This document shows, piece after piece, positions 53,374-59,993 of a stretch of DNA of 64,000 nucleotides. The notes below the pieces were generated by a model that was given only the letters and a program-made list of their open reading frames with translations, was not told where the DNA came from and did no database searches. This DNA comes from Sedimentibacter sp. MB31-C6 (GTDB lineage Bacteria; Bacillota; Clostridia; Tissierellales; Sedimentibacteraceae): positions 62,001-126,000 of the forward strand of contig NZ_CP142396.1 in NCBI RefSeq assembly GCF_035934735.1, written 5' to 3'. The position numbers and the translations under genes are program-made. The first letter of the stretch is position 1. Each line of letters starts with the position of its first letter.

Positions 53374-53539
53374 GTTGCTTCGCAACGCCGCTAGGGGGAC
53401 CTATGTCCCCCTTCGGCGTAAAAATGCTTTATTAAAGCATTTTTACTGAGCACCCCCCTTAACGGCAAGGACGTTCCGTCCTTTGCAATCCTCGTTTTTT
53501 ATTATATAGGAAAGGAGAACTTTCCTATATAATAAAAAA
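53374..53539. repeat. Cluster of five perfect or near-perfect hairpins, GC-rich (candidate palindromic mobile/repeat element or structured RNA)
   Basis: In 166 bases I find five consecutive hairpins: A, GTTGC-TTC-GCAAC (53374-53386); B, CGCCG-x-GGGGGAC-CTAT-GTCCCCC-x-CGGCG (53386-53418); C, 12-bp stem TAAAAATGCTTT/AAAGCATTTTTA (53419-53445); D, GCAAGGACG-TTC-CGTCCTTTGC with one bulge (53465-53486); E, perfect 20-bp stem with a 5-base loop (53495-53539). The part from A to D is about half GC by my count, against roughly a quarter to a third in the surroundings. Hairpin A is followed by T-rich sequence on the minus strand. No open frame of note. It lies between the 47-residue gene and the serA promoter; gene-free stretch 53323-53543. 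Confidence 0.8.
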
Positions 53540-53601: not shown

Positions 53602-53745
53602 TTAGTATCCTCTTCCAAATCCTCTGCCAAATCCGCCAAATAAGAAGAAAATAACACCTATTATTATTATCCAAAACAAAAAATCATTGTCGTTATCACA
53701 AGGATCGCAACAACCAAAACCAGTAGCTTTTACTTCATCTGACAT
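53602..53745 (-). CDS. Small YjcZ-like single-pass membrane protein, 47 residues
   Basis: The frame from the ATG at 53745 to TAA at 53602 encodes 47 residues: a polar head with GFGCCDPCDNDND (Cys12, Cys13, Cys16), one hydrophobic segment (about 22-36, FLFWIIIIGVIFFLF) and a Gly/Phe/Arg tail (GGFGRGFGRGY). AGAGGTG precedes the ATG and a terminator follows. The layout resembles YjcZ-type small proteins of spore formers. The Cys cluster could bind metal or form disulfides; function unknown. Confidence 0.8.
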   Translation of the reverse strand: MSDEVKATGFGCCDPCDNDNDFLFWIIIIGVIFFLFGGFGRGFGRGY

Positions 53746-53807
53746 ATAATTCACCTCTCTAACTTTATAATTTAATATATGTTAGAGTTCAGATATTGTG
53801 ATTAAGT

Positions 53808-56233: not shown

Positions 56234-56262
56234 TTGCATAATCTTTCTACATTTGCTATAAT
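56234..56262 (+). promoter_or_regulatory. Promoter of a predicted small RNA
   Basis: TTGCAT (56234-56239), 17-base spacer, TATAAT (56257-56262) on the plus strand, with no plus-strand gene downstream but with a hairpin starting exactly at the predicted +1 (56269) and an intrinsic terminator about 90 bases further. Confidence 0.7.
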
Positions 56263-56268
56263 ATCTAT

Positions 56269-56363
56269 GGTTATCCCCCCGATAACCAAATATATTCCCA
56301 ATACCCCTTTTATGCATATTAATGCTTCACAATTATGGCCTGCTGGCCATTTTTGTGTTTTTG
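56269..56363 (+). ncRNA. Predicted C-rich small RNA (~95 nt)
   Basis: Begins at the +1 predicted from a good promoter. 5' hairpin GGTTATC-CCCCC-GATAACC (56269-56287) displays a run of C bases in its loop; a single-stranded middle contains two more C-rich stretches (TTCCCA and TACCCC, 56295-56307), and a terminator hairpin with T-tract ends it. C-rich loops complementary to Shine-Dalgarno sequences are a hallmark of several Gram-positive trans-acting RNAs. It is antiparallel to both flanking genes and overlaps no coding region. No long open frame. I cannot assign it to a named family. Confidence 0.6.
56328..56363 (+). terminator. Intrinsic terminator of the predicted small RNA
   Basis: ATGGCC-TGCT-GGCCAT hairpin (56335-56350), extended by CACAA/TTGTG after a two-base mismatch, with TTTTT runs after the inner stem and after the outer one. 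It points in the plus direction, where no protein gene ends. Confidence 0.7.
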
Positions 56364-59606: not shown

Positions 59607-59993
59607 TTATTTTAAATATTGGACACAAGTAACAGTATTTCCTTTTACATCAAATTTATCGGAAAGACCTTCTACAAGCATTAATCCTCTTCCTGATTCA
59701 CAATAGTCATATTCGCCAAATGCTTTTCGCCTATATCTTATTCCTGGGCCTTCATCTGATACCTCTATAATCAAACATGAATTATCTATTATAACATTAA
59801 TATTCAAAAGCTTGTTTTTGTCTTCCATATTTCCGTGCTTTACTCCATTTATTATTAATTCATGTAGTATTAACTTTGTATTAAAGCAAACTTTCTCATT
59901 TAATAAACTTTCAATATTATGAAGAATGTCTTCAACAACATCTTTAACCATGTTTATGTCGATGTTAACTTTCCTCTCTATTTTACAATTCAT
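59607..59993 (-). CDS. RsbW-like ATP-binding protein (anti-sigma/HATPase_c_2)
   Basis: 128-residue GHKL-fold ATPase of the RsbW/SpoIIAB class. N-box HELIINGVKHGN, G1 box VSDEGPGI and G2 box GRGLMLVEGLSDKF are intact; there is no phospho-acceptor domain. Such proteins bind and inhibit sigma factors or phosphorylate STAS partners, but no sigma factor or STAS gene is adjacent, so it is an orphan. GGGGAGG precedes the ATG; an overlapping out-of-frame ATG seven bases upstream reads only four codons. Monocistronic. Confidence 0.88.
   Translation of the reverse strand: MNCKIERKVNIDINMVKDVVEDILHNIESLLNEKVCFNTKLILHELIINGVKHGNMEDKNKLLNINVIIDNSCLIIEVSDEGPGIRYRRKAFGEYDYCESGRGLMLVEGLSDKFDVKGNTVTCVQYLK

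Follow-up and report, generated by a model that had tools for sequence, protein, structure and literature searches.

We analyzed a 64,000-nucleotide stretch of the Sedimentibacter sp. MB31-C6 genome (contig NZ_CP142396.1, hereafter the window), in which an earlier note had described a promoter, a hairpin with a C-rich loop and a terminator at 56234-56356. All three are present as described and delimit a putative small RNA (sRNA), called the RNA below, for which we propose a link with the sporulation regulator gene spo0A. Reading of the window open reading frames (ORFs) also bears out that both flanking genes lie on the opposite strand: one flank holds a NifS/IscS-type class-V aminotransferase gene and a ThiI gene, the other holds genes for a helicase and for an aminotransferase-IV protein, and all are on the minus strand. 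The features of the locus are the following.

56234..56262, plus strand: sigma-A type promoter, as judged from sequence and promoter conservation, with a -35 TTGCAT (56234-56239), a 17-bp spacer, a -10 TATAAT (56257-56262; both read directly) and an extended -10 TG one base ahead of TATAAT (56254-56255)
56269..56356, plus strand: putative small RNA of about 88 nucleotides, seen as a conserved block with drifting flanks and recovered by covariance models R1 and R2; the 5' end at 56268-56269 is an inferred position
56269..56287, plus strand: 5' hairpin GGUUAUC-CCCCC-GAUAACC, with its first base 7 after the -10, a perfect 7-bp stem and a loop of five C, the proposed seed for the spo0A Shine-Dalgarno site (two-sided changes, loop pairing)
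56288..56313, plus strand: C-rich stretch AAAUAUAUUCCCAAUACCCCUUUUAU, conserved and unpaired in the fold, with CCC at 56297-56299 and CCCC at 56304-56307; a second possible seed
56314..56325, plus strand: small hairpin GCAU-AUUA-AUGC seen in the fold, paired in 93.8% of cells (24 sequences)
56328..56358, plus strand: predicted intrinsic terminator ATGGCC-TGCT-GGCCAT (hairpin 56335-56350) with a T run, an outer CACAA/TTGTG stem and an end near 56356; besides the fold, four of its pairs carry two-sided changes in the 24-sequence full alignment, where the covariation score lies above all 500 shuffles

The folding energy of the RNA is -28.6 kcal/mol versus -12.8 kcal/mol for shuffles (z-score -5.9), and none of 200 shuffles was as good. 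Within the surrounding 4.5 kb, 3 terminator-like sites were counted against 0.5 expected. The 43 promoter-like sites there, against 35.6 expected, are no proof on their own; the promoter scan required four of six consensus bases, and TTGCAT has three, so that this promoter is outside the 43. What decides that the element is real is conservation. Counting the window's own genome, 21 of the 25 genomes in the genus carry the RNA with 84-100% identity, and for 18 of them the aligned part extends up into the promoter region. The observation of the earlier note is thus confirmed, with one small amendment: the C-run comprises six C in the window and seven in most Sedimentibacter relatives.

Conservation and genomic context of the RNA

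After an initial covariance model (R1), the wider search used a second model (R2) restricted to the 5' core of the RNA. Of the 249 order genomes, 96 contain the RNA according to R2 at an E-value of 0.001, and they represent 43 of 92 genera; among the 392 class genomes, R2 detected it in 16. The covariance search that the earlier note had suggested therefore places the RNA well outside Sedimentibacter. A pattern scan of named genomes gave at least 117 stretches with the RNA, and among the matches listed the carriers include Tissierella, Anaerosalibacter, Alkaliphilus, Tepidibacter, Romboutsia, Paraclostridium, Clostridioides difficile and others. Two of the RNA-bearing records, titled Lutibacter sp. 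B2 and Caproiciproducens sp. MSJ-32 (L163, L222), have names that look wrong for the group.

The usual order of elements is GGUUAU, a run of five to eight C, (U)GRUARCC, a variable-length linker and then UUCCCAAUACCCCUUUU. The 5' hairpin and the CCCAAUACCC stretch are kept, while the upstream DNA, the 3' hairpins and the terminators vary among clades. In sequences examined from several clades, the RNA is nevertheless followed by a hairpin and T run that resemble a terminator. Degenerate relatives occur in genomes G214-G217 (L392-L394, L411), which keep the TGTCG promoter described below and UUAUCCCCCUG but have lost AAUACCCC; in G217, UUAUCCCCCUG stands behind the same promoter type. In the f17 genomes it is the hairpin and UUCCC that are retained and AAUACCCC that is lost. 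Because G214-G217 keep UUAUCCCCCUG yet lose AAUACCCC, these relatives hint that the loop may be the essential part of the RNA.

In alignment A2, which comprises 60 unique cores, 97.6% of the cells of the 5' helix are paired, with zero two-sided changes. This invariance is partly built in, since the cores were chosen by patterns fixing much of the hairpin and UUCCCAAUACCC. A set of 18 sequences that includes divergent members found by the model gives a fairer view, even if it was also chosen by us. In this set 94.4% of cells pair and four of the seven pairs show two-sided changes, a result reached by 1 of 500 shuffles, which argues that the hairpin itself is under selection. CCC-AAUACCC is identical in all 18 sequences, divergent members included, and is lost or changed in some others.

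No credible match was found in Rfam 15 at the site of the RNA with E-values up to 5, nor any match at gathering score on 20 distant RNA loci. The family, which is strongly conserved and occurs in many anaerobic bacteria, is thus absent from Rfam 15. Our literature search, which did not extend to supplementary tables, retrieved no paper recognisable as describing a Spo0A-RNA loop or this RNA, although such tables may list the C. difficile copy under a number.

Several genomes carry more than one copy. Second, diverged copies with an altered second hairpin and terminator are present in four genomes of the window's family, namely L026 (G003), L027 (G024), L028 (G018) and L056 with G025:C19 (G025). 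Tandem copies about 200-245 bases apart are found in L131, L151, L160, L172, L194, L208 and L216 (two copies in six of these stretches, three in one), mostly from Paraclostridium, Romboutsia and relatives. In L134, L142, L151, L223 and L224 the loops of the 3' hairpins contain or adjoin CGGA or ACGGA, which we take to resemble CsrA sites.

The surroundings of 118 loci, some of which come from one and the same genome, were compared. A cysteine desulfurase-type gene, divergent from the RNA, is among the two nearest upstream genes at 97 of them, and 48 loci have a gene from a cluster of which the tested member encodes a LUD-domain protein, and this gene is nearly always the nearest one. The C. 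difficile copy is located between a nifS-like gene and an amino-acid ATP-binding cassette (ABC) transporter gene, near a thiI-like gene, and its downstream gene is on the opposite strand. The cysteine desulfurase next to the RNA had suggested a role in iron-sulfur regulation. This idea was abandoned, since besides the desulfurase the neighbours comprise ThiI and a LUD-domain protein, and no IscR was seen. Downstream, a gene of a same-strand cluster, of which one tested member encodes asparaginase, is the nearest at 65 of 118 loci and among the two nearest at 67, as would be expected if the RNA were a cis-acting leader or attenuator of the asparaginase gene. We consider this very improbable: the RNA is kept at the 42 of 118 loci, including those of the window and of C. 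difficile, whose nearest downstream ORF has the opposite orientation, and the terminator-like hairpins that follow it in several clades speak against a leader as well. As the neighbourhood is conserved and the strand of the downstream gene varies with the RNA kept, the RNA appears to be a stand-alone gene in an old neighbourhood rather than the leader of a single gene. That the site is instead a short coding sequence is hardly credible. A 48-codon frame starting with TTG does overlap the RNA on the plus strand, but the terminator falls within it, linker lengths among relatives are not multiples of three and the length of the C-run varies by one base.

The spo0A Shine-Dalgarno site as a proposed pairing target

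The earlier note saw in the RNA a trans-acting regulator that uses C-rich motifs to pair with Shine-Dalgarno sites of genes in the window. The mode of action is well supported by the conservation of the loop and the single-stranded C-runs and by the complementarity to spo0A described here, but the window targets are not supported, as pairing of the RNA core with the start sites of 58 window genes was no better than that of core shuffles (mean -14.8 versus -14.3, standard deviation 0.8; best five -22.8 versus -21.9, standard deviation 1.5). Two of the three named targets, FtsK/SpoIIIE and a polysaccharide deacetylase that is likely the ylxY homologue, do have GGGGG at their sites, while no separate ymxH was recognised. 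These sites are not above chance: they are to be expected because 9% of background genes have such sites. The best start site of the 58 for the loop alone belongs to a gene at 59607-59993 on the minus strand, coding for a 128-amino-acid HATPase_c_2 protein that may be read as anti-sigma-factor-like. Two further classes of target gained no support: the long complement of the CCCAAUACCCC stretch occurs at 15 sites of the window genome (the RNA itself included) versus 19 for the reversed control, and AAAGGGGTAT start sites numbered 44 in 14 genomes versus 37 for theirs.

In contrast to these candidates, spo0A stands out. We resolved the spo0A locus in 40 of 43 RNA-bearing genomes tried and in 28 of 31 RNA-less ones; the RNA-less set consists mostly of the best-scoring spo0A matches rather than a random draw, and it includes G195, which is only 82% complete and belongs to a genus whose other members bear the RNA. 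A Shine-Dalgarno tract of five or more G (G5-G7) precedes spo0A in 36 of 39 RNA-bearing genomes versus 11 of 28 RNA-less Clostridia, and 77 of 825 background genes have such a site. When the loop segment UUAUCCCCCUGGU was paired with start sites, spo0A ranked at a median 2nd percentile of 824 background sites, and it fell in the top 5% in 28 of 39 RNA-bearing versus 4 of 26 RNA-less genomes (Fisher 1e-5). No such preference was seen with the 3' end of 16S ribosomal RNA, for which spo0A lies at the 35th percentile. None of 100 shuffled loops was as good as the real loop at spo0A, and for the single-stranded stretch, which is less special, 10 of 100 were. Genome G217 is outside the RNA-bearing counts (36/39, 28/39) and inside the shuffled-loop and 16S controls. 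Energies of whole-core duplexes with 17 spo0A leaders were mixed, start sites having been picked wrongly for two, and only the loop segment alone stood out.

We also screened six genomes for CAGGGGG-N5-10-DTG, a pattern that does not name spo0A. Among the matches listed (113 loci), spo0A was recovered in four of the six genomes and is the only gene family present in more than two, the next one occurring in two. The 113 loci do not include three of the G237 sites and, in G524, twelve places and two repeated sequence types; three of the spo0A loci were known beforehand and were counted because their places are among the CAGGGGG matches. The spo0A sites of G509 and G186 read UGGGGGG and so fall outside the pattern.

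In the window genome the spo0A Shine-Dalgarno site is UUAGGGGGAAAAAAUG. Its duplex with the loop plus stem is stronger than those of all 58 window genes; for the loop alone two of the 58 are stronger, and for the single-stranded stretch 19. Identical-score spo0A matches are present on both contigs of the window assembly (G000:C1:1769-2080 and G000:C2:4826-5137), probably as the result of an assembly overlap.

The TGTCG site in the RNA promoter

We aligned on the -10 the 98 unique RNA promoters found outside the Sedimentibacter/Dethiosulfatibacter-type group. Of these, 96 have the TTG of the -35 and 96 the TG ahead of the -10, and in the Sedimentibacter-type group the same letters are each present in 30-32 of 32 promoters. 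The two groups differ in the spacer: 90 of the 98 promoters have TGTCG at one fixed distance from the -10, exactly -13, versus 1 of the 32, and the window promoter is without it. The full motif TGTCGN4TTGNTATAAT occurs once per genome in the six genomes searched, five times at the RNA promoter and in G217 upstream of a related but diverged RNA. The core of the Spo0A box, TGTCGAA, begins with these same five bases, and its G2, C4 and G5 are contacted (PMC3485338).

The presence of TGTCG follows that of spo0A, scored by PF08769. With Sedimentibacter set aside, 62 of 69 RNA-bearing genomes with spo0A have the site versus 3 of 19 without spo0A (Fisher 1e-9), and with Sedimentibacter included the numbers are 62 of 89 versus 3 of 20 (2e-5); both are counts over genomes with a readable promoter, uncorrected for kinship. 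The genomes that have neither spo0A nor TGTCG are spread over several families and mostly retain the -35 and -10. Of the seven spo0A-bearing exceptions, three are one base off and three have weak PF08769 matches. Nine genomes that bear the RNA or were suspected to (G030, G181, G196, G197, G214-G217, G243) were judged by eye. TGTCG and spo0A are both present in eight, of which seven were added to the counts and G217 was omitted because its RNA was not called by the model; G030 has no upstream sequence.

A possible Spo0A-RNA circuit and its alternatives

The sporulation decision of Clostridia that have no apparent phosphorelay is poorly understood. From these comparisons we think it reasonably probable that the RNA represents a conserved family of trans-acting regulators that repress spo0A and are themselves under the control of Spo0A. 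The exposed C-loop, perhaps together with the CCCAAUACCCC stretch, would pair with G-rich Shine-Dalgarno sites, above all the G5-G7 tract of spo0A; this pairing would block spo0A translation, so that growing cells would have little Spo0A. A putative Spo0A box lies between the -35 and the -10 of the RNA promoter in most members of the family. The position of the box within a near-consensus promoter suggests repression, and phosphorylated Spo0A (Spo0A~P) would most likely shut the RNA off once sporulation is under way. If Spo0A represses the RNA, a double-negative loop results. More tentatively, and with somewhat less than even confidence, we propose that in several families of Clostridia such an RNA-protein switch, with the C-loop closing off the start site of spo0A and Spo0A~P repressing the RNA promoter through the box, provides bistable commitment to sporulation without an apparent Bacillus-type phosphorelay.

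Several observations weigh against this proposal, in addition to the uncorrected kinship noted above. After TGTCG, where the known box has AA, the first base is unconserved and the second weakly conserved. In Sedimentibacter, the window included, the box is absent from the spacer even though spo0A is present, so that in this genus sequence supports the spo0A-pairing half only. Conversely, G309 keeps the box with spo0A undetected, as do G193 and G194, which are 86-88% complete, and the within-genus contrast between G239 and spo0A-less G240 is tempered by G240 being only 88% complete. Of the 109 genomes with a promoter reading, 20 bear the RNA although spo0A was not detected in them (some are incomplete assemblies), which means that the RNA must have targets besides spo0A. 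As for pairing, 11 of 28 RNA-less Clostridia also have a G-rich spo0A site, so this trait extends beyond the carriers of the RNA; the choice of the loop segment was made when the G-tracts of spo0A were already known; and in a cofold of the window RNA with its own spo0A leader it is the CCCC stretch that pairs and not the loop.

Some of these points would suit a general C-rich regulator of the RsaE/RoxS style acting on many G-rich Shine-Dalgarno sites, with spo0A one among dozens and not the reason why the RNA is conserved. The RNA is indeed kept in genomes without detected spo0A, for example in family f6, the single-stranded CCCAAUACCC stretch is conserved about equally to the loop, and CAGGGGG start sites exceed the reversed-pattern control in G210 (25/9), G182 (33/11), G186 (12/5) and G509 (17/11). 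The excess is however slight or absent in G237 (23/22) and G524 (54/43), no family besides spo0A recurred in more than two of the six screened genomes at the loci examined, and the promoter TGTCG follows the presence of spo0A; we therefore regard this explanation as unlikely. Less likely still, in our view, is that the RNA represses spo0A while TGTCG is the site of another regulator or an element of promoter strength. Bases 6-7 of the box are poorly conserved in the RNA promoters, and Sedimentibacter and G309 violate the rule that ties TGTCG to spo0A, but loss of TGTCG in spo0A-less members of several families that mostly keep the -35 and -10, and the confinement of the full promoter motif to RNA promoters or a related RNA in the six genomes, both speak against this.

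Control of spo0A by sRNAs has a precedent. According to a report on C. difficile (PMC10267692), SpoY represses spo0A by pairing at its ribosome-binding site and SpoX raises spo0A translation, while eight further sRNAs were found joined to spo0A. SpoY (nc020) is reported to derive from the 5' untranslated region of CDIF630_00827, and its nucleotides 30-41 to be protected by spo0A. Like SpoY, the RNA described here is complementary to the G-rich spo0A ribosome-binding site. It differs in that its loop would correspond to nucleotides 7-12 and in that its C. difficile copy has a nifS-like gene and an amino-acid ABC transporter gene as neighbours. Identity of the two is therefore unlikely, SpoY being set apart by its reported place and protected nucleotides rather than by a sequence comparison. 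The RNA could however be one of the eight further sRNAs.

The comparison with the RsaE/RoxS type drawn in the earlier note holds in part. The RNA shares with these sRNAs C-rich motifs, in a loop and in single strand, that are able to pair with Shine-Dalgarno sites, and ACCCCUUU is presumably a motif common to both. Yet no Rfam RsaE match was obtained with E-values up to 5, and the RNA occurs in another host group with other neighbours and another promoter site.

If the proposed link with Spo0A from both sides is true, an RNA that spans 43 genera of a single order, besides other families in the class, would give the sporulation decision a general RNA layer. The family is new to Rfam 15 and can be annotated with the covariance model built here.

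The window contains another small RNA family, Clostridiales-2 (RF02937), a separate element and the only match of the Rfam 15 scan of the window. It lies at 53406-53500 on the minus strand (60.7 bits), about 2.8 kb from the RNA. Close to it, a 50-amino-acid ORF at 53602-53754, also on the minus strand, has a hydrophobic Gly/Phe-rich tail and possibly encodes a small membrane protein.
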